Positions 4,023 through 48,800 of a stretch of DNA of 64,000 nucleotides are shown in pieces. Numbering within the stretch: position 1 is the stretch's first letter; the number at the start of each line of letters is the position of its first letter. Made by a program: the position numbers and the translations under genes. The notes under the pieces were generated by a model, which was given only the letters and a program-made list of their open reading frames with translations, searched no databases and was not told the DNA's origin. Source of the stretch: Mariniphaga anaerophila (GTDB lineage: Bacteria > Bacteroidota > Bacteroidia > Bacteroidales > Prolixibacteraceae); contig NZ_FQUM01000005.1 in NCBI RefSeq assembly GCF_900129025.1, positions 62,001 through 126,000 of the forward strand, read 5' to 3'.

Positions 4023-5108
4023 ATGGCAGAATATACATTACTCGAAAAATACGAATCAGTTAAACACCGGTTTGAAGAAGTTCAGCAGCAAATTACCGAT
4101 CCGGAAGTAATTTCGGATATGAAACGTTACGTAAAACTTAACCAGGAATACAAAAGCCTGGAGAAACTGGTGGCTATTTTCAAAGACTATAAAAATCTGG
4201 TTGACAATATTGAGTCGGGAAAAGAGATACTGGACGAAGAATCTGATCCGGAATTGCGCGAAATGGCCCGCGAAGAGATGGAAATGGCCGAAGAACTGAT
4301 TCCTCAAAAAGAAAAAGAAATTAAATTTTTGTTGGTTCCTGCCGATCCGGAAGACGGCAAAAATGCTATTCTGGAAATCCGTGCCGGAACAGGTGGTGAC
4401 GAAGCCAGTATTTTTGCAGGAGACCTGTTTCGTATGTATTCAAAATTTTGTGAAAAAAAGGGATGGCGGCTTGAAGTAACTCACCTCAACGAAGGAACGG
4501 CCGGCGGATACAAAGAGATTGTGGCAAAAGTTTCGGGTGAAGGTGTTTACGGAATTTTGAAATACGAATCGGGAGTACACCGCGTGCAACGGGTGCCACA
4601 AACCGAAACCCAGGGCCGCGTGCACACTTCGGCAGCAACAGTGGCTGTTTTGCCCGAAGCAGAGGAATTTGACGTGGAACTGAAAGAATCTGATATACGA
4701 AAAGATACTTACTGCTCATCGGGTCCGGGTGGACAATCGGTAAACACCACCTACTCGGCCATCCGGCTGACGCATATTCCTACCGGAATTGTGGTAACCT
4801 GCCAGGATGAGAAATCGCAGCTGAAAAACCTGGCCAAGGCCATGTCTGAGCTTCGAACCAGAATTTACAACATGGAGTACCAAAAGTACATCGACGAAAT
4901 TTCGTCGAAACGTAAAACCATGGTTTCCACAGGCGACCGCTCGGCAAAAATCCGTACTTACAACTGGCCGCAAGGAAGGGTTACTGACCACCGGATAAAC
5001 CTGACACTTTACAACCTGCAGGCAATCATCAATGGCGAAATAGACGAAATTATTGAAAAGCTGATGATTGAAGAAAACGCAGAAAAAATGAAAGAAGCCG
5101 AAATTTAA
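4023..5108 (+). CDS. prfA: Peptide chain release factor 1
   Basis: 361-residue class I release factor acting at UAA and UAG. The stop-codon-reading tripeptide is PQT (consensus PxT, which marks RF1 rather than RF2's SPF), just before the TQGRVHTSA segment. The peptidyl-tRNA hydrolysis motif GGQ is in SGPGGQSVN near residue 237. The helical N-terminal domain covers residues 1-110. Length is standard. It is flanked by purM and pyrF on the same strand; the start ATG follows an A-rich leader containing AGGAG 10 nt upstream. Confidence 0.97.
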   Translation: MAEYTLLEKYESVKHRFEEVQQQITDPEVISDMKRYVKLNQEYKSLEKLVAIFKDYKNLVDNIESGKEILDEESDPELREMAREEMEMAEELIPQKEKEIKFLLVPADPEDGKNAILEIRAGTGGDEASIFAGDLFRMYSKFCEKKGWRLEVTHLNEGTAGGYKEIVAKVSGEGVYGILKYESGVHRVQRVPQTETQGRVHTSAATVAVLPEAEEFDVELKESDIRKDTYCSSGPGGQSVNTTYSAIRLTHIPTGIVVTCQDEKSQLKNLAKAMSELRTRIYNMEYQKYIDEISSKRKTMVSTGDRSAKIRTYNWPQGRVTDHRINLTLYNLQAIINGEIDEIIEKLMIEENAEKMKEAEI

Positions 5109-5159
5109 ATCAGTGAAACACGCATTCCGCAATTTTTCCTTTCACTATAAATAAAGAAC

Positions 5160-5990
5160 ATGAACCGTCAACAACTTTTTGAACAGATACAGAAAAAACG
5201 CAGTTTTCTATGCGTAGGATTAGATACCGATGTGCTGAAAATCCCAAAACATTTAACGGGAGAGGAAGACCCGGTGTTTTCTTTTAACAAAGAGATTGTT
5301 GACGCCACTGCTGCTTTTTCGGTAGCATACAAACCCAACCTTGCTTTTTACGAGAGTTTAGGCTGGCAGGGCTGGCAAAGCCTCGAAAAAACAGTGAAGT
5401 ACATACGGGAAAAATACCCTGAAATATTTTTGATTGCCGATGCCAAACGCGGAGATATTGGCAACACATCCAGCCTGTATGCCCGGGCTTTTTTCGAAAA
5501 ACTGGACTTTGACGCAGTAACAGTTGCTCCATACATGGGAGAAGACTCTGTAAAACCATTTATGAATTACGCCAACAAATGGGTGATTTTGCTTGCGCTT
5601 ACGTCCAACAAAGGCGCCTTCGATTTTCAGTTTATTCGGGATGACAAAACCGGAAACCCGCTTTTTGAAACGGTTTTAACAACTTCGCAGAACTGGGGAA
5701 CCGCAGAAAACCTGATGTACGTGGTTGGCGCCACCAAAGCCGAAAAGCTGAAAGAAATAAGGGAAATAACACCTGACCATTTTCTGCTTGTACCCGGGGT
5801 GGGCGCACAGGGCGGCAGTTTGCAGGAAGTGGCAAAAAATGGGATGAACAGCCAATGCGGATTACTGGTTAATTCTTCGCGCGGAATTATTTACGCTTCT
5901 GCAAATGAAGATTTTGCCGAAAGAGCCGGCGAAGCAGCCCGCACCATTCAGCAGGAAATGGACATGCTACTCAAAGAAAAAGGCCTGTAA
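5160..5990 (+). CDS. pyrF: Orotidine 5'-phosphate decarboxylase
   Basis: 276 residues, the longer (type 2) OMP decarboxylase that converts OMP to UMP in the last step of de novo pyrimidine synthesis. The catalytic Asp-Lys-Asp element is in [12 protein letters not shown] near residue 88, and the phosphate-binding VPGVGAQGG loop is near 212. It starts 51 nt after prfA and is likely the last gene of the purM-prfA-pyrF unit; the next gene is convergent. Confidence 0.95.
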
Positions 5991-8110: not shown

Positions 8111-8977
8111 TCACTCATGAAATTTCTGGAAATACGCTGTCGGGGTCATTTTGGCCAGCCGCTTAAAAGTGCGGTTAAAATTCGACAAATTATTAAATCC
8201 ACACTCGAAGCAAACCTGCGAAACCGAAAGTTTGCCTTCAATCAGCAGTTTACACGCATAACTTATGCGCAAATCAGTTATATATGCGGTGAGCGATTTC
8301 CCGGTTTTCTCTTTAAAAAAACGACAAAATGCCGATGGATGCAAATGTGCAATTTCAGCAACTTGTTCAAGCTCAACTTTCTGCTGGTACCTGGTGGTTA
8401 AAAAATGCAACACCCTGGTCAGGCGGTCATCCGTAAAATCATGCCTCTGCAAATTGTACAACTCTCCCGCCAGCAACCTGTAATCCTGCGCTTTGGCCAA
8501 TTCCTGCAAAAATTGCAACAGCAAAATCACCTGTTCAAATCCTGAACTTTGTGCAATGTTTACGATCTGTGCGGCCACTTTTTCAGAAAAAAGAGAAGAA
8601 AAACGAATCCCGCGTGACGACCGGTCAAGCAACTCCTTTATTGCTCTAAACTCGGGGTATTCAAACAGCGACTCACGAAACAAATCGTCGGGAAACTGAA
8701 TTACAATGTAATTTATTTTTTCTTCGCTGTTTGGTGAATGATACTTTTCGTCGCTTCTCCAAAAGTGAGGCAGGTTGCTACCCAGCATGGCAAGGTCGCC
8801 CGCATTAAACTGCTCAATGTTGTCAGCTACAAAGCTGGTTCCCGAACCTTCTATAATGTACAAAATCTCATATTCGCTATGAAAGTGCCACGGATACGTA
8901 AAATGAGGCATTTTCCGCCATTTCACTTTCATGGCCGCACGCAACGGAAAATCAATATACTCCTGCATCACTTTCAT
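8111..8977 (-). CDS. AraC-family transcriptional regulator with cupin sensor domain
   Basis: 288 residues from the ATG at 8977; an in-frame TTG at 8995 is less likely because a near-consensus -7 box (TAATATTG) lies between the two. The N-terminal cupin has the metal/ligand-type H-x-H (YPWHFHSEYEILYI). The C-terminal 100 residues form the double helix-turn-helix, with HPSAFCRFFKEKTG and the second-helix signature CGFNNLSNFNRTFK. It is divergent from the UroD/DUF6807/dehydrogenase operon with only about 110 bp between the start codons, so it most likely controls that operon in response to a sugar-like ligand. Confidence 0.9.
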   Translation of the reverse strand: MKVMQEYIDFPLRAAMKVKWRKMPHFTYPWHFHSEYEILYIIEGSGTSFVADNIEQFNAGDLAMLGSNLPHFWRSDEKYHSPNSEEKINYIVIQFPDDLFRESLFEYPEFRAIKELLDRSSRGIRFSSLFSEKVAAQIVNIAQSSGFEQVILLLQFLQELAKAQDYRLLAGELYNLQRHDFTDDRLTRVLHFLTTRYQQKVELEQVAEIAHLHPSAFCRFFKEKTGKSLTAYITDLRISYACKLLIEGKLSVSQVCFECGFNNLSNFNRTFKRLAKMTPTAYFQKFHE

Positions 8978-9056
8978 AGGTTTCAATATTAGCAAAAATG
9001 CTAATTCAGTACAAATCCTTGTTAAAAAAATACTGTCAAATAATTTATGTAAATCC

Positions 9057-9064
9057 TAATTTTG
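9057..9064 (+). promoter_or_regulatory. -7 element of the UroD-like operon
   Basis: TAATTTTG, exact TAnnTTTG match, about 23 nt before the preferred ATG at 9088. No TTTG -33 is at the right distance, which fits an activator-dependent promoter next to an AraC gene. Confidence 0.5.
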
Positions 9065-9087
9065 GAAACAGGAATCAATCAAAAACT

Positions 9088-10131
9088 ATGACAAATCAAC
9101 AATGGCAACTATTGCTGGAAACTGTGCGGGGGAAAACACCTGAAAAACCCGTAACAGGATTTATAATCGACAGTCCCTGGATTCCGGGATGGGCCGGAGT
9201 AAAAATCCTCCAGTTCTATTCTTCGGAAGAAGTTTGGTTTCAGGCCAACAAAAAAGTTATCGAAACATTTCCCGACATTATTTTCCTCCCTGGCTTTTGG
9301 TCTGAATTTGGAATGTGCACAGAGCCTTCAGCTTTTGGAGCCAAAATGATTTGGGACGAATACAATTTACCACACGCCGGAAAAATTTTTAATGATATCT
9401 CTGAAGCCGTCACACTAAAAGCTCCCAACCCAAAAACTGACGGACTGTTGCCATTTGTTATTCAACGCCTGCAGAACTACCAGAAACCTATGATGGAGAT
9501 GGGACACGAAGTGAAATTTGCTGTTGCTCGCGGCCCGCTGAACATTGCATCTTTTTTAATGGGAACCACCGAACTTATGATGAGTTTTATGATGAATCCG
9601 AAAGAAAGCCATCAACTGCTGGAGACTATCACTCAATTCATCATTAACTGGTTGCTGCATCAAAAAGAAACCTTCCCGACTATAGAAGGAATTTTCGTGC
9701 TCGACGACATTGTTGGCTTTGTTGGCGACGACGAGTGCAGGGAATTTGCAATACCTTATTTTAAACGAATTTTCAACGCATTCGATTCCAACCTAAACTT
9801 TTTCCACAACGACGCCCACGGATTAGTTTCGGCTCCCCACCTGAAAGAAATGGGTGTACACTTGTTTAACTTCAGTTTTGAACATAGCCTGAAAGAGATT
9901 CGGGAACTGGCCGGTGCCGATATAGCGCTAATCGGGAACCTGCCGCCCCGCGACGTTCTTGCCACGGAAACACCGGAACAAGTTCAGGTCGAAACCCGTA
10001 AAATGGTACAAAGTTTTGGCGATAAAAACCGGATTATCTGGTCATGCGGCGGCGGAATGCCACCAAATGTTTCCACCGAAAATATCAGGGCTTTTAAAAA
10101 TACGATTAATGAAGTAGTTCCAACACTATAA
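9088..10131 (+). CDS. Uroporphyrinogen decarboxylase-family (MtaA/MtbA-like) methyltransferase
   Basis: 347 residues from the ATG at 9088; the longer frame starting at 8998 is rejected because the -7 box lies inside it. The fold is the UroD (alpha/beta)8 barrel, but neighbours show no haem pathway genes. Corrinoid-dependent methyltransferases of this superfamily bind Zn with a His/Cys set; here His240 (FFHNDAHG) and Cys320 (WSCGGGMPP) stand at comparable places, while only one Cys is seen where MtaA has H-x-C...C. Gene context (two DUF6807 proteins and a Tat Gfo/Idh dehydrogenase, AraC regulator) suggests handling of a modified sugar, perhaps a methyl ether. The exact reaction is unknown. Confidence 0.72.
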   Translation: MTNQQWQLLLETVRGKTPEKPVTGFIIDSPWIPGWAGVKILQFYSSEEVWFQANKKVIETFPDIIFLPGFWSEFGMCTEPSAFGAKMIWDEYNLPHAGKIFNDISEAVTLKAPNPKTDGLLPFVIQRLQNYQKPMMEMGHEVKFAVARGPLNIASFLMGTTELMMSFMMNPKESHQLLETITQFIINWLLHQKETFPTIEGIFVLDDIVGFVGDDECREFAIPYFKRIFNAFDSNLNFFHNDAHGLVSAPHLKEMGVHLFNFSFEHSLKEIRELAGADIALIGNLPPRDVLATETPEQVQVETRKMVQSFGDKNRIIWSCGGGMPPNVSTENIRAFKNTINEVVPTL

Positions 10132-10143
10132 ATTTTTCACAAC

Positions 10144-11388
10144 ATGAAACTAAAACTGCTTACCCTAATGATTTTGGCTTCTTCTCATCTCGTTTCCCAG
10201 GAGTTGGCCAAGTTTACCGTTCAGGTTGAAAAGGAGCTGATTGATGCTCCGGTTTCGCTTGTTCTCGACGGGCTAAACTACAATACAGATAGCGGAGATT
10301 TGTTGCTTTTTGAAGTTGATGAAAACGGCGAAACACCTATCCCCTCACAGCTGGAAACAGGCCACTCGGCAAAGCTCTGGTTTATTATGAAAGGAGTTTC
10401 TGCAAAGAACTCAAAACGCAATTTCATTTTAAAAACAGAAAAAAACACAGATTTCCAACAGCCTGGAGTCAGGATACAAAAAAAACACAAAGACCTCAGC
10501 TTGCTTTTTAATGAAAAACCGGTTTTAAGTTACCGTTTTGAGACCACGTTCCCGCCCGAAGGAGTTAATCCGTTATACAAACGCTCCGGGTTCATTCACC
10601 CGTTGTGGTCACCGAAAGGCGAAGTTTTGTCTCGCATTCAGGCGCCCGATCACTATCATCATTACGGCATTTGGGGCCCGTGGACACTAACACACATTGA
10701 CGACCGCGAAGTGGATTTCTGGAACCTTGCCAAAGGACAAGGAACGGTAAAGTTCAAATCATTTTTAGCCGAAGTTGAAGGAGAAATTTTCAGTGGTTTT
10801 AAGGCTCTTCAGCAGCACATCGATTTTGGCGGGCAGGGAGAAGACCAGGTTGCCATGAACGAAATTCTGGATGTGAGGGCCTGGAACATCTCAGAAAAAG
10901 TCTGGGTTATTGATTATACTACCTCGCTAAACAGCCCTCTCCCCAATGGAATTATGCTTAACGCCTACCGATATGGCGGAGGAATCGGCTTCCGCGCTAC
11001 AGAAAAATGGCACAAAAACAACTGCTCGGTACTTACTTCCGAAGGAAAAAGCCGCGCCGATGCCGACGGTTCGTTAGCCCGCTGGTGCATTGTTGAAGGC
11101 GAATCAGACACCGACGAAGGCCGTTCCGGAATACTTTTTTTAAGTCACCCGTCAAACCGGATGCACCCCGAGCCGATGCGGGTTTGGCCACTGAATGCCA
11201 ACGAGGACAGGGGCGACATGTATTTTGAGTTTGTTCCTATACGATACGAAGACTGGAAACTGGAGCCACTACACAGCTATACATTGAAATACAGAATGAT
11301 TGTTTTCGACGGAGAAATGAATGCCGAAACCGCTGAAAAGTACTGGAACAGTTTTTCATCAATGCCAAAAATAGAAATTAAAAAATAG
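10144..11388 (+). CDS. DUF6807 ('PmoA') family secreted protein, long form
   Basis: 414 residues with a signal peptide (about 1-18). The DUF6807 domain covers roughly residues 115-405 and shows family marks: HHYGIWGPW near 177, a HPSNRMHP segment near 337 and a late FEFVPI strand. Database entries often say 'methane oxygenase PmoA'; that name has no relation to particulate methane monooxygenase subunits and should not be taken as function. In Bacteroidota and Planctomycetota the family sits in carbohydrate clusters next to Gfo/Idh genes, as here. It starts 12 nt after the UroD-like gene. The N-terminal 110 residues form an extra beta-rich domain absent from the next gene. Confidence 0.8.
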   Translation: MKLKLLTLMILASSHLVSQELAKFTVQVEKELIDAPVSLVLDGLNYNTDSGDLLLFEVDENGETPIPSQLETGHSAKLWFIMKGVSAKNSKRNFILKTEKNTDFQQPGVRIQKKHKDLSLLFNEKPVLSYRFETTFPPEGVNPLYKRSGFIHPLWSPKGEVLSRIQAPDHYHHYGIWGPWTLTHIDDREVDFWNLAKGQGTVKFKSFLAEVEGEIFSGFKALQQHIDFGGQGEDQVAMNEILDVRAWNISEKVWVIDYTTSLNSPLPNGIMLNAYRYGGGIGFRATEKWHKNNCSVLTSEGKSRADADGSLARWCIVEGESDTDEGRSGILFLSHPSNRMHPEPMRVWPLNANEDRGDMYFEFVPIRYEDWKLEPLHSYTLKYRMIVFDGEMNAETAEKYWNSFSSMPKIEIKK

Positions 11389-11470
11389 CAAAATGATGCT
11401 ACATGAAGTGAGCATGTTATTCAACCTCATGCAAATTCCATGTGGTAAAAAAGAATAAAAATTCAAACAA

Positions 11471-12364
11471 ATGAGAAGGTTACAACTAATTATTATTGTG
11501 TGCATTGCTTTTATTGGAACGTCCGCAGCACAACCAAAAGTCACGGCAGAAAAAGTCGGCGACAAAATCGAATTCAGGGTTGACGGAAATTTATTTACCA
11601 GCTACATCCTTTCTGAATTTGAGAAATACCCGTTCTTTTTTCCGGTAAACGGCCCGTCAAAAGCATCGGTCACTTCCATGCGAAATGCCAATTACCCGCA
11701 CCACAGTTCGCTATTTTTCGGATGCGACCGTGTGAACGGCGGCAACTGGTGGCAGGAAGGATTGGAGCGCGGACAAATTATTTCACTGCGGGCTGATATT
11801 CTTGAAACAGGAGCAGCAAAAGCCGTAGTTGAAAATGAATGCATCTGGCGCCGCCCGGGAGCTGATGCACCCATTAAAGACAAACGAAAAATTACCGTTT
11901 CGGCTCCCTCCGCCGACAAGTTCCAAATTGATTTTGACATCGTTATGGAGATGCTGGAAGATGTGACCATTGAAAAAACAAACCATTCGCTTTTTAGCGG
12001 CCGGGTTGACCCCGATTTGGCTGTGGTTAACGGAGGAACCATGATAAATGCAGAAGGAGATTCCGGCGAAAAAGGCACATTCGGAAAACGTTCAGCCTGG
12101 ATGGACTATTCAGGGAAACGAATGGGAAAAACCGAAGGAATAGCTATTTTGCAACATCCTTCAAACGAATGGTTTCCGGCCCCCTGGTTCACCCGCGACT
12201 ACGGATTTTTCTCGCCTACACCAATGTATTGGCCTGAAAATGGTGAAAAAACCCAACTAAAAAAAGGAGAGCAAATAAAACTGAGGTACCGGGTAATTGT
12301 GCATAGCGGAGATTACAGTGAGGCCAATATTTCCGGGGAATTCGAAAAATATAAAGAAGAATAA
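11471..12364 (+). CDS. DUF6807 ('PmoA') family secreted protein, short form
   Basis: 297 residues with a signal peptide ending TSAAQ near 21. It is a distant paralogue of the preceding gene: YPHHSSLFFGCDRVNGG near 78 matches the HHYGIWG site, and LQHPSNEWFPAPW near 235 matches the HPSNRMHP site. Histidines in these two segments are the best candidates for an active or metal site (inference). It lacks the extra N-terminal domain of its neighbour. The 82-base gap to the upstream gene is AT-rich with no promoter match, so it is probably in the same operon. Confidence 0.8.
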   Translation: MRRLQLIIIVCIAFIGTSAAQPKVTAEKVGDKIEFRVDGNLFTSYILSEFEKYPFFFPVNGPSKASVTSMRNANYPHHSSLFFGCDRVNGGNWWQEGLERGQIISLRADILETGAAKAVVENECIWRRPGADAPIKDKRKITVSAPSADKFQIDFDIVMEMLEDVTIEKTNHSLFSGRVDPDLAVVNGGTMINAEGDSGEKGTFGKRSAWMDYSGKRMGKTEGIAILQHPSNEWFPAPWFTRDYGFFSPTPMYWPENGEKTQLKKGEQIKLRYRVIVHSGDYSEANISGEFEKYKEE

Positions 12365-12440
12365 AAAGGCCGATTCTTAATGACGCAATTTTGTTTTCAT
12401 TTCGAAAAACTAATACGAAACAATCAATAAAATTATAACA

Positions 12441-13814
12441 ATGAAACGCAGAACATTTCTTAAAAACACCGCTGCGGCATCAGCCGGAACCTTGATAATA
12501 CCGACAATAGTTCCTTCGTCGGTTTTTGGCAAAAATGCACCCAGCAACAAAATACACATTGGACAAATTGGCTGCGGGCGCATTGCACGCGTTCACGACA
12601 TGCACGAAACGCTAAAGTACGATGTAGCACGCATGGTAGCAGTTTCGGATGTTGACAGCAACCGAATGGCCGACGGGAAAAAGCTGGTTGAAGATTTCTA
12701 CAAAGGGAAAACCGGCAGTTCCAACCCCATAGATGTAAAAATGTATGCCGACTACAAAGACATGCTGGCCGACAAGAATATCGATGCGGTAATAATAAGT
12801 ACCCCCGACCACTGGCACTCGCAGCCTGCAATTGAGGCCGCGCTGGCCGGAAAAGATATTTACCTGCAAAAACCTACGTCGCTAACCGTTGAAGAAGGGC
12901 GCCTGCTCAGCGACATTGTGCACCGGCAAGGCGTTATTCTGCAGGTAGGCACACAGCAACGGTCATCTCCACAGTTTAGGAGGGCTGCCGAACTTGTGCG
13001 CAACGGCCGGATTGGAAAAGTACACACCGTAAAAATAGGATTACCCGGCGACCCTTCCGGACCGGTTTTCGAAGCAGGGCCAATTCCCAAAAACCTGAAT
13101 TTTGACATGTGGCTCGGTTCTACCCCGGAAATTGAATATAAAGAAGACCTGGTTCATCCGCAAAACGATTACAGTCGCCCGGGATGGCTTCGCCATGAAA
13201 ACTACGGTGCCGGCATGATTACCGGATGGGGGCAGCACCATTACGACTCGGCAGCGTGGGGAATGGATACCGAATTTACAGGACCAATCTCGGTTGAGGC
13301 TGTTGCTCAATTCCCCAAGTCGGGCGACTGGAATGTGCATGGCGATTTTATGGTAAAACATGAATACGAAAACGGGATGACTGTTTACACAAGCGGCGGT
13401 TTTCCCAACGGAATCCGTTACGAAGGTACCGACGGGTGGATTTTCGTAACTCGTGGTGCATACCGTGCCACAGAAAGCGATCCGATTCCGGAAGGCTCAA
13501 CAAAAGCGCTGGATGCCAGTAGTGAGGAAATTCTTAAATCGAAAATCGGCAAAAATGAAACGCACCTATATGTCAGCAACGAGCAACACGGAAACTGGCT
13601 CGACTGTGTCCAGTCACGCAAGCAGCCTATTTCGCCTGTTGAAATCGGGCACCGTGCGTGTACTGTTTGTCTCATCAGCCACATTGCAATGAAAATACCG
13701 GGTATTCTGCAGTGGGATCCGAAAGCCGAAAAGTTTGCAAATAACGATCTGGCCAATTCCATGTTAAGCCGGCCGCAACGATATCCTTACGGAACAAACT
13801 ATGTAAAACTTTAA
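12441..13814 (+). CDS. Gfo/Idh/MocA family oxidoreductase, Tat-exported
   Basis: 457 residues. The N-terminus carries a Tat-type signal (KRRTFLKNTAAASAG) with an Ala-rich h-region and a likely cleavage near 31; there is no lipobox. The Rossmann motif is GQIGCGRIARVH near residue 40. The usual EKP motif reads QKP (LQKPTSL), keeping the catalytic-site lysine but replacing Glu. The C-terminal domain has the WGQHHYDSAAW segment seen in the periplasmic Bacteroidota group. It is the last gene of the AraC-linked operon and ends in a strong terminator. Probably oxidises or epimerises a sugar together with the two DUF6807 proteins. Confidence 0.87.
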   Translation: MKRRTFLKNTAAASAGTLIIPTIVPSSVFGKNAPSNKIHIGQIGCGRIARVHDMHETLKYDVARMVAVSDVDSNRMADGKKLVEDFYKGKTGSSNPIDVKMYADYKDMLADKNIDAVIISTPDHWHSQPAIEAALAGKDIYLQKPTSLTVEEGRLLSDIVHRQGVILQVGTQQRSSPQFRRAAELVRNGRIGKVHTVKIGLPGDPSGPVFEAGPIPKNLNFDMWLGSTPEIEYKEDLVHPQNDYSRPGWLRHENYGAGMITGWGQHHYDSAAWGMDTEFTGPISVEAVAQFPKSGDWNVHGDFMVKHEYENGMTVYTSGGFPNGIRYEGTDGWIFVTRGAYRATESDPIPEGSTKALDASSEEILKSKIGKNETHLYVSNEQHGNWLDCVQSRKQPISPVEIGHRACTVCLISHIAMKIPGILQWDPKAEKFANNDLANSMLSRPQRYPYGTNYVKL

Positions 13815-45876: not shown

Positions 45877-48800
45877 TTACTTGTAATTCAGATTAAACGA
45901 AAGGAATTTTTCCAGGTACTCCTCCGGTTTTCCTTTTCGGCGTGCATAATCTGCCACCTGATCGCGCCCCACTTTTTCGAGACTGAAATAGCGCGACTCC
46001 GGATGAACAAAATACTGGCCCGACACAGAAGCGTTGGGATACATCGCAAAATGCTCGGTTAATTTGATGCCAATTTCATCTGCTTTTAAAAACTCAAAAA
46101 GGCTTTCCTTTTCCGAGTGCTCAGGACAGGCAGGGTAACCAAGCGCCGGCCTTATTCCCTGGTATTTTGCTTTCAGCAAATCATCATGCGAAAGATGTTC
46201 GTCGGGTGAGTAGCCCCAGTATTCTTTTCTGATTTTCAGGTGCAGCACCTCGGCAAAAGCTTCACTCAACCGGTCAGCCAGGGCTTCCAACATAATGGCT
46301 TTGTAGTCGTTATGGTCTTTGCGGAATTTTTCTTTCCACGGTTCAATTCCAATGCCGGCGGTAGTTGCAAATCCGCCCACATAATCACGCTTTCCGGAAT
46401 TTACAGGCGCCACAAAATCAGAAAGGCAAAGATTTGGCGCTCCACCTTTCTTTTTCTCCTGCTGCCGGAGGTGGAAAAAACGCCCGATTTCTTTTTTACG
46501 CGATTCATCCTCAAAAAGGATAATATCGTCGCCATCGGCATTGGCGGGCCAGATTCCAAATGCGGCATTGGCCCGAAGCATTTTTTTCTCGATAATTTCA
46601 TCGAGCAGTTCGTTGGCCTCTTCATAAAGTTTTTTGGCCGCTTCGCCCTGCTTTTCATCCTGAAGTATTTGCGGATAATGTCCTCGCATTCCCCAGGTAA
46701 GAAAAAAGAAAGTCCAGTCGATGCTTTTCCGCAGCTCTTCCAACGGATAGTCCAGTAAATGTTTTACCCCGATAAAATTGGGCGTGTAAAGCGGAGCATT
46801 ATCCCAGTCTAGTTGCAGCTTATTGGCTCGTGCTTCTTCCAGCCTCAAATACTCTTTGGGTTTTCGCTGCCCCTGAAATTGCCTGATTTGCTCGTAGTCG
46901 TCTTTTACAGACTGAATATATTTTTCGTTTTTTGCAATGAGGTTTGCAACAACATTTACGGCCAGCGATGCGTCTTTCACGTGCACAACCGGATGCGAAT
47001 ATTCCGGCTCAATTTTTACGGCAGTATGGATTTTTGAAGTGGTGGCGCCACCAATCATCAGCGGAATATTCATTTTTCGCCGTTCCATTTCCCGGGCAAT
47101 ATCTACCATAATTTCCAGAGAAGGAGTGATTAACCCGCTCAGCCCGATAACATCAACATTTTCCTGCAGTGCAGTGTCCAGAATTTTTTCGGTTGGCACC
47201 ATTACGCCAAGGTCAATAATTTCGTAGTTATTGCAGCCCAGCACCACTCCAACAATGTTTTTGCCGATGTCGTGCACATCGCCTTTTACTGTGGCCATCA
47301 ACACTTTTTTCTGGCGGCTTACTCCTTTCATTTGAGCCTTTTCGGCCTCGATAAACGGCAAAAGATAAGCGACTGCCTTTTTCATTACGCGGGCAGATTT
47401 AATAACCTGCGGCAGAAACATTTTCCCGGAGCCAAACAAATCACCTACCACGTTCATGCCGTCCATCAGCGGCCCTTCAATAATACTCAGCGCCGGCTGG
47501 TATTTTTTCAACGCCTCTTCCATATCTTCGTTTGCAAAATCGGGAATACCCTTTACCAAAGCGTATTCCAGCCGTTTTTCCAATGGCTGATCCCGCCAAA
47601 CGTCTTTTCTGGTTTCCTTTTTATCTTCCTGAATTACCTGCTCTGCAAACTCCAGCAACCGCTCGGTAGCATCGGGTCTCCGGTTCAAAATAAGATCTTC
47701 GGTTTTCTCCAGCAGGTCTTTCGGAATTTCATCGTAAATCTGCAACATCCCGGGATTTACAATTCCCATATCGAGGCCGGCCCGGATGGCATAAAAAAGA
47801 AAAACCGAGTGCATGGCTTCACGCACCAAATTGTTGCCGCGGAATGAGAAAGAGACGTTGCTGATTCCCCCGCTGGTTTTGGCATGAGGCAGATTTTCCT
47901 TGATCCATTTCACTGTTTCAATAAAGTCAACCGCATAATTATTATGCTCTTCCATTCCTGTTCCAATGGTCAGCACATTAGGATCGAAAATGATGTCCTG
48001 AGGTGGAATCTCTACTTCTTCGGTAAGAATTTTATAAGCCCTTTTGCAAATTTCTATGCGCCGCTCGTAAGAATCGGCCTGCCCTTTTTCGTCGAACGCC
48101 ATAACAACCACCGCTGCCCCAAAACGTTTAATGGTTTCAGCTTCAGCTATAAATTTTTCTTCGCCTTCTTTTAAACTGATTGAATTTACGATGGCTTTTC
48201 CCTGCAAACATTTTAAGCCTGCCTTAATTACATTCCATTTCGATGAATCAATCATCACCGGGAGTTTGGCAATATCGGGTTCTGCCATCATCAGATTCAG
48301 AAATGTTACCATTTCCGTTTCGGCATCAAGCATGGCATCGTCCAGGTTGACATCGATAACCTGCGCTCCGTCTTCTACCTGTTTACGGGCAACGGAAAGC
48401 GCTTCCTCGTACTTTTTTTCGCGAATTAGGCGTGCAAACTTTCGCGATCCGGAAACATTACACCGTTCGCCAATATTTACAAAGTTCGTTTCAGCAGTAA
48501 GCGTTACCGGCTCGAGCCCGCTCAGGTGCGTATTTTCATCTCTGGGGTTTGTTTTATGCGGCCGGGCATGTTCTGCCAGTTTTGCAAACTCCCTGATATG
48601 AGCAGGCGTGGTTCCGCAACATCCGCCAATAATATTTACAAAGCTGTTATCCAGGTAATCTTTTATGTGTCCGGACATGATTTCCGGTGTTTCGTCGTAA
48701 CCGCCAAATTGATTGGGCAACCCGGCATTGGGATGAGCGCTGATGTTGAACGGCGCTTTTTGCGAAAGCTCTTTCACGTAGGGCCGCAAATCGGTAGCTC

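Follow-up and report, generated by a model that had tools for sequence, protein, structure and literature searches.

A stretch of 64,000 nucleotides of Mariniphaga anaerophila (assembly GCF_900129025.1, contig NZ_FQUM01000005.1, positions 62,001 to 126,000 of the forward strand), here called the window, carries a five-gene cluster built around a gene for a protein of the uroporphyrinogen decarboxylase (UroD) superfamily. We propose, at a probability of roughly 0.6, that this cluster supplies the substrate-specific functions of a pathway that O-demethylates a methylated glycan with the help of a corrinoid (vitamin B12). The features of the cluster are as follows.

8111..8995, minus strand: AraC-family regulator with a cupin sensor domain, divergent from the other genes (Pfam HTH_18 81.6 bits, AraC_binding 37.6 bits)
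8978..9087, no strand: short divergent intergenic region, a probable promoter/operator (from the sequence)
9088..10131, plus strand: UroD-superfamily protein of 347 amino acids (aa), proposed methyl-donor:corrinoid-protein methyltransferase (methyltransferase I, MT I; from fold, corrinoid linkage and co-occurrence)
10144..11388, plus strand: DUF6807 protein A, galactose-mutarotase-like beta fold, signal peptide by eye (PF14100 207.9 bits)
11471..12364, plus strand: DUF6807 protein B, signal peptide by eye (PF14100 212.7 bits)
12441..13814, plus strand: Gfo/Idh/MocA oxidoreductase, twin-arginine leader by eye (GFO_IDH_MocA 60.6 bits)

The four same-strand genes are separated by 12, 82 and 76 base pairs (bp). 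Pfam scores were 115.4 bits for URO-D (gathering cut-off 23.9), 207.9 and 212.7 for DUF6807 (cut-off 27) and 60.6 for GFO_IDH_MocA (cut-off 24). An earlier note on this DNA had placed the five genes here, and the open reading frames and these scores, far above gathering, bore it out with corrected starts for the UroD-like and AraC proteins. The UroD-like frame also opens at 8998. Its start is very probably ATG 9088, since the orthologue alignment begins at that Met and the frame from 8998 would open only 2 bp past the end of the AraC frame. No signal peptide was seen in the 347-aa form. The AraC protein probably starts at 8977, because its orthologues begin MKIMHE. What we take to be a TAnnTTTG-type box of Bacteroidota, a candidate promoter motif, was seen by eye about 20–30 bp before ATG 9088. 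The N-terminus of the Gfo/Idh protein, MKRRTFLKN, reads by eye as a twin-arginine signal and scored 13.7 with the Pfam TAT model, below the cut-off of 22.7.

The five genes form a real conserved cluster, because the identical set recurs in order across many genomes, beyond chance. UroD-like orthologues were found in 80/140 genomes of the window's family, mostly as one copy per genome, and in 11/395 genomes of a phylum-wide sample, a count that includes the window's genome. The nearest named relatives of the window's protein come from Mariniphaga, Draconibacterium and Maribellus (Prolixibacteraceae). A collection scan found 534 relatives, of which the best 80 were considered, some titled Planctomycetota, Kiritimatiellota or KSB1. 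In these the neighbours were DUF6807-A in 52, Gfo/Idh in 52 (Gfo/Idh counts may include paralogues), AraC in 39, DUF6807-B in 28 and a PF16490 oxidoreductase lipoprotein in 25, many contigs being short. The two DUF6807 genes of the earlier note are therefore both present in the window but inconstant among relatives. Within 10 kb in 77 loci of the window's type, short contigs included, we found DUF6807 in 63, Gfo/Idh in 58, AraC in 44, PF16490 in 25 and a ThuA-like protein in 23. The UroD-like gene is thus kept with its partners, a point on which the earlier note had asked for a neighbourhood search, and the AraC orthologue lies nearly always on the opposite strand to it in these loci.

A maximum-likelihood tree separated these loci from others carrying the gene. 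The 116 loci with a UroD-like gene (L198 and L199 lacked it) came to 103 once identical proteins were merged; tree and conservation counts used proteins longer than 300 aa plus the window's, in 103 rows (100 in-group, 3 outgroup). All DUF6807-linked proteins fell in one group (support 92/86), the window-type group, which also holds some other Bacteroidota and one KSB1 row. Outside it lie Planctomycetota and Kiritimatiellota rows, and 16 rows (99/100) linked to GH115 or to a stand-alone corrinoid protein (COR; PF02607 plus PF02310, best hit below 1e-40). Support for the window-type branch is middling, and the long branches L219, L141, L145 and L116 are unsurely placed.

The UroD superfamily is described as including corrinoid MT I O-demethylases, some without zinc (PMC13222342), and OdmB and VdmB are UroD-superfamily phenolic O-demethylases (PMC10418091). 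The predicted structure of the window's UroD-like protein (pLDDT 88.9, pTM 0.90) has the UroD-superfamily TIM-barrel fold of the MT I O-demethylases. Its best match was UROD (4zr8; Z 30.8, rmsd 3.0, 332 aligned), nearly equalled by MtaA (4ay7; Z 28.6, rmsd 3.1, 328 aligned), so the fold cannot decide function. UROD entries were the sole matches in a PDB sequence search, at E ≤ 0.03 with the single protein and E ≤ 0.01 with the alignment. The protein scored 51.7 bits against the hemE equivalog model (cut-off 302.95) and 33–62 bits against MtaA/MtbA-type NCBIfam models (cut-offs 235–600). A separate and far better URO-D match in the same genome (G000:C17, 321.5 bits) aligns as HemE.

The residues of the UroD-like protein set it apart from both types. 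The zinc ligands of MtaA, His-x-Cys ... Cys, are His237, Cys239 and Cys316. The corresponding motif, His240-Asn-Asp242 plus Gly322, was present in 100/100 in-group rows, with Asp242 and Gly322 in the MtaA Cys columns; this register was set by eye from alignments. The earlier note had asked whether His240 and Cys320, numbering that agrees with the 9088 start, form a zinc site. His240 is invariant, but position 320 varies among the 100 rows (86 Cys, 12 Val, 2 Ala) and Gly322 occupies the column of the third MtaA ligand, so such a site is not supported. Glu73, Glu79, Arg127, Arg148, Asp206, Asp207, His240, Asn241 and Asp242 are invariant in all 100 in-group and 3 outgroup rows. By DSSP, Arg148, Asp206/207 and His240–Asp242 stand at or just past barrel-strand ends in the model, for several residues the C-terminal end, and the two invariant arginines could hold a carboxylate. 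The catalytic residues of human UROD are Arg37, Asp86, Tyr164 and His339. In the UroD-like protein the N-terminal Arg segment is absent, the His339 column holds Gly322 (by eye, in a GHG/GGG segment) and the Asp86 column falls near Glu73, where the alignment is uncertain. These residues hence do not match true uroporphyrinogen decarboxylase; such a match was one of the results that the earlier note had named as refuting its reading. Scores and residues together rule out identity as a haem UROD, and the replacement of HxC...C by HND...G rules out a thiol-methylating enzyme of the MtaA type.

The UroD-like gene is tied to COR by co-occurrence. In the window's family, COR was present in 73/80 carriers of the UroD-like gene vs 21/60 non-carriers (Fisher p 1.3e-12), and stratification by genus gave a Mantel-Haenszel odds ratio of 24.8 (p 4e-8). 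Seven carriers had no COR, and 6/7 of these genomes are less than 90% complete. Window-type carriers taken alone gave 64/70 vs 21/60, and inside one genus (g6) COR was found in 19/19 carriers vs 4/18 non-carriers. The phylum sample gave 10/10 carriers vs 0/20 non-carriers, the latter having MetH-sized frames of at least 892 aa, or nothing. COR was also present in 14/16 genomes behind named loci of several phyla, a set that overlaps the family set (at least G155 seems identical to G100).

Physical linkage points the same way. On the same contig, COR lies within 2 kb of the UroD-like gene in G206, G343, G488, G532, G275 and G383 of the phylum sample and about 6 kb away in G194; it lies elsewhere in G169, G355 and G414. 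G275 and G383 are outgroup members, 35% identical, in which only 92 bp (G275) and 98 bp (G383) separate the UroD match from the COR match that follows it. In three genera of the window's family (g4, g5, g19) the UroD-like gene stands beside a PF02574 homocysteine S-methyltransferase (HMT), mostly also with COR and a PF02965 activation-domain protein (ACT). COR, HMT or ACT lies within 10 kb in 12/16 loci of the base (sister) clade (COR 11, HMT 11), and in L213 the run is COR-HMT-ACT-UroD, with ACT and UroD overlapping by 4 bp. On these grounds the UroD-like protein is very likely the MT I of a corrinoid system.

In the window's genome, COR lies on another contig (G000:C19:63730-64392), where its neighbours are HMT, CobW, a GntP permease, an AraC gene and a UroD-thioredoxin fusion. 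The fusion (L067:7925-9544), a UroD-family protein joined to thioredoxin-like PF13192 between COR and HMT, keeps both MtaA-type cysteines and not the His. A GntP permease was near COR in 8/20 newly fetched family loci; four older loci, chosen because GntP had already been seen there, stand outside this count. Two genomes, G049 and G067, carry the window-type run AraC, UroD, DUF6807-A, DUF6807-B, Gfo/Idh, SusC, SusD, PF16490. One or two further or small genes are interspersed, and SusC/SusD were Pfam-checked in G067 only. The PF16490 end is followed directly by AraC-COR-HMT, with the UroD-thioredoxin gene between COR and HMT in G067, about 13 kb from the UroD-like gene. This arrangement is suggestive only, because by our own estimate about 0.4 such neighbours are expected by chance in 70 carriers.

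The neighbours of related UroD-like genes point to glucuronoxylan. GH115 enzymes are alpha-glucuronidases that remove (4-O-methyl-)glucuronic acid from xylan, and GH115 near the UroD-like gene was confirmed by Pfam in L213, L214, L215 and L219. The gene order is GH115-GH43-COR-HMT-ACT-UroD-like in L213 and L214 and the same without ACT in L215, with gaps below about 75 bp and some genes overlapping by 4 bp. A second UroD protein, UroD2, is encoded downstream, directly in L214 and past one or two genes in L213 and L215. In linked loci it keeps HxC in 5/5 and the GC motif in 4/5, one frame being short. In the phylum sample, GH115 was found in 9/10 carriers vs 11/50 non-carriers (p 9e-5). These 50 comprise the 20 listed genomes, which alone served for the corrinoid test, and G221–G250, assumed to be of the same draw and not among the 11 carriers.

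Genes for uronate breakdown were also found. UxuA (D-mannonate dehydratase) lies on the opposite strand in L214–L218, and D-mannonate oxidoreductase was matched at 344 bits in L214 and at 373 bits in L047 (cut-off 281); L215 has a similar gene. Nine window-type loci have a D-mannonate oxidoreductase-type SDR above 350 bits within 10 kb, five of them together with UxuA. SDR matches of 104–194 bits (L136, L142, L156, L217) were too weak to be used as such evidence, though they stand in the raw count. In Planctomycetota, the UroD-like gene is divergent from a GH43-GH10-symporter operon in L149 and follows a symporter-type frame and a GH10-GH43 fusion in L151, the symporter in these two loci being of the MFS_2 type. 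In L155, from a Phycisphaerae genome, UxaC (glucuronate isomerase) is directly upstream of the gene. Directly downstream, a single protein (L155:11085-13622) joins Gfo/Idh, a 3-keto-disaccharide hydrolase and CBM35.

The earlier note had suggested a corrinoid-type methyltransferase for an O-methylated sugar, and this gains support from related UroD-like genes standing beside corrinoid-protein and glucuronoxylan/uronate genes, from which the substrate would be deduced. An O-methylated sugar or uronate is probable as the substrate, with 4-O-methyl-D-glucuronate the best candidate across the family. The window's own substrate is less certain, because in its family the gene shows no association with GH115, and the corrinoid genes of its genome are on another contig. 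That the window copy acts specifically on 4-O-methylglucuronate is a tentative assignment, which we hold at somewhat less than even.

Among the secreted proteins, the DUF6807-A model (pLDDT 89.4) has a galactose-mutarotase-like beta fold. Its best match was the PL26 exo-rhamnogalacturonan lyase 5xqo (Z 19.5, rmsd 3.4, 324 aligned, 10% identity), with other mutarotase-like folds scoring just behind. By sequence, DUF6807 had no PDB match at E ≤ 0.1. Histidines 152, 170, 172, 173 and 225 are among those invariant in 30 rows. DUF6807 may plausibly act as a lyase or hydrolase on an oxidised or uronic-acid glycoside. We found no tested activity for DUF6807 (PF14100) in the open-licence literature. 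One report places a PF14100 gene in an operon from a metagenome, together with two beta-galactosidase activities (PMC5342196), PF14100 has been used as a methane-oxygenase marker (PMC10291797), and DUF6807 is mentioned by name in passing (PMC10971088). The Gfo/Idh protein resembles glycoside 3-dehydrogenases only distantly, its best NCBIfam model being BT_2158_fam of that type at 127.1 bits (cut-off 750).

From these observations a five-step route can be drawn. Outside the cytoplasm, the secreted Gfo/Idh and the two DUF6807 proteins would act on a methylated uronosyl or glycosyl residue, freeing it or processing it beforehand, possibly via a 3-keto intermediate, helped in other genomes by the ThuA-like and PF16490 proteins. 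The methylated sugar acid would then enter the cell, perhaps through the GntP permease whose gene adjoins the corrinoid genes. In the cytoplasm, the UroD-like protein would transfer the sugar's ether methyl to Co(I) of COR encoded at G000:C19, freeing the sugar acid, as the linkage seen in relatives suggests. HMT, encoded near the corrinoid protein, may hand the methyl to homocysteine, judging from the family. The demethylated uronate would enter the route of UxaC, mannonate oxidoreductase and UxuA, whose genes neighbour the UroD-like gene in several clades. A wider version is possible, if short of probable: a family of corrinoid O-demethylases by which several phyla remove the 4-O-methyl of methylglucuronate that stems from glucuronoxylan and transfer it to homocysteine, with the window-type clade adding a secreted 3-keto release and DUF6807 proteins as new lyases or hydrolases.

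Several results weigh against this pathway. COR or HMT lay within 10 kb in 0/77 window-type loci, of which one (L112) has an ACT-like match at 9.5 kb, and no corrinoid gene was found within 10 kb in 7 Planctomycetota/Kiritimatiellota loci. The G049 and G067 cases are not far beyond chance, and both come from one genus. The window's genome had no stand-alone ACT at E ≤ 0.001, only MetH; 7/10 genomes tested have one. Because of shared ancestry, the corrinoid-linked loci are not independent events, and the UroD-like gene and COR could both mark an anaerobic life-style, which would raise linkage and co-occurrence. GH115 was unassociated with the UroD-like gene in the window's family (35/80 vs 32/60, p 0.31). 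There it was found in 26/70 window-type carriers vs 9/10 base-clade carriers, and 3/4 genomes of the window's genus are without it. GH2 beta-galactosidase was near the gene in 14 and sulfatase in 7 (one a Pontiella) of the best 80 of 534 relatives, one member of each cluster being Pfam-checked; these neighbours would also fit a methylated galactan.

These last results carry the strongest alternative, that the chemistry is the same but the sugar differs, the marine window-type clade using for example 6-O-methyl-galactose of algal galactans and only older clades using 4-O-methylglucuronate. The GH2 and sulfatase neighbours, SusC/SusD in some loci, the lack of association with GH115 within the family and the rarity of UxuA within 10 kb of window-type genes (5/77) all favour it. 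It is set back by putative active-site residues that are identical across clades and by the nine window-type loci with the D-mannonate oxidoreductase-type SDR, and we regard it as unlikely, though still the first of the alternatives to be reckoned with.

Two further alternatives each have a slim chance. The UroD-like protein might be another enzyme of uronate or keto-sugar breakdown, such as a decarboxylase or lyase, with its corrinoid tie a reflection of anaerobic life-style. The missing MtaA zinc triad would fit, as would corrinoid genes that are non-adjacent in the Planctomycetota/Kiritimatiellota and window-type clades; the tight COR-HMT-ACT runs of the base clade and, at 35% identity, of the outgroup speak against it, as does the contrast between carriers and non-carriers inside genus g6. 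Equally improbable is that the UroD-like protein, COR, HMT and ACT make up a split folate-independent methionine synthase with an unknown methyl donor, a proposal that differs from O-demethylation of a glycan mostly in purpose. HMT, COR and ACT match parts of MetH, and a dual-role split system is described for Ruegeria (PMC12478193), but the window's genome also encodes a full-length MetH, and the UroD-like gene is linked with an AraC regulator and with genes of glycan type. Least probable is the demethylation of lignin-type methoxy-aromatics, placed near xylan genes by the co-occurrence of lignin and xylan: known aromatic O-demethylases, MtvB, OdmB and VdmB among them, are members of the UroD superfamily or relatives of MtvB (PMC13222342, PMC8630106), but the identified neighbours here are sugar, uronate and glycan genes, with no aromatic-ring gene recognised among the neighbours viewed, most of them judged by eye.

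The proposed glycan O-demethylation system can be compared with known ones. MtvB, OdmB, VdmB, MtoB and the chloromethane enzyme CdmB share its superfamily and its plan of MT I, corrinoid protein and second methyltransferase, with an activating enzyme in some (PMC13222342). Unlike them, the system described here has glucuronoxylan/uronate genes or secreted sugar proteins as neighbours and has a PF02574 HMT beside COR. The MtaA/MtbA coenzyme M methyltransferases and type 1 mlp clusters are alike in superfamily and fold, and here HND...G replaces HxC...C. HemE has a common fold, with different scores and residues. The Ruegeria glycine-betaine demethylase and split methionine synthase MtgBCDE likewise shares a stand-alone corrinoid protein with a PF02574 module, and MtgC is a precedent for a corrinoid protein serving both demethylation and homocysteine methylation; its methyl-donor enzyme is of PF06253 and ours of UroD type, and the sugar context is found only here (PMC12478193). 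DUF1080 proteins are described as 3-ketoglycoside hydrolases (PMC9007349). Their 3-keto-glycoside pathway (DUF1080 hydrolases such as BT2157, Gfo/Idh of the BT_2158 type) likewise has a secreted Gfo/Idh, and relatives of the window's cluster have DUF1080 partners, in one case (L155) as part of a fusion that also contains Gfo and CBM35. It differs in that DUF1080 is absent from the window's cluster and the Gfo/Idh protein is far under the BT_2158_fam cut-off.

Other genes around these loci were also recorded. The window itself, at about 45931–47553 and beyond on the minus strand (G000:C25:107931-109553), has a 1225-aa frame of MetH size that matches corrinoid and activation domains, so B12-dependent methionine synthesis is present beside the split corrinoid system. 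In L221, an outgroup locus, HMT is accompanied by methylenetetrahydrofolate reductase and a pterin-binding enzyme (both by Pfam), and folate may therefore be the methyl acceptor there. MtaB-like genes (methanol:corrinoid methyltransferase, PF12176) adjoin the gene of a similar corrinoid protein in L080, L082, L083, L250, L251 and L262, assigned by Pfam in L080 and by likeness in the other five, which suggests methanol use in these family relatives. In L057 (10811-13216), a single frame of about 800 aa joins EutB and EutC of the B12-dependent ethanolamine ammonia-lyase, and the UroD-like gene lies immediately downstream of it. L112, labelled corrinoid-linked in the tree, has only an ACT-like match of 137 bits 9.5 kb away and was not counted as linkage. 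Upstream of the cluster, the window carries prfA-pyrF (4023–5990, names by eye). The pyrF gene adjoins the UroD-like gene on the same strand in L059/L108 and L112, and the chromosomal position is thus partly conserved.

Among the ether-methylated sugars of plant biomass, 4-O-methyl-glucuronate is very common, and in the open-licence literature we found no paper naming a bacterial enzyme that removes its methyl group. The GH115-containing operons are unusually clear candidates for biochemical assay. If our proposal is true, a gene annotated as UroD and a functionally uncharacterised domain would gain a directly testable role, and known corrinoid O-demethylation would extend from aromatics, amines and thiols to sugars. 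It would also explain a source of one-carbon units in anoxic sediments and wetlands.

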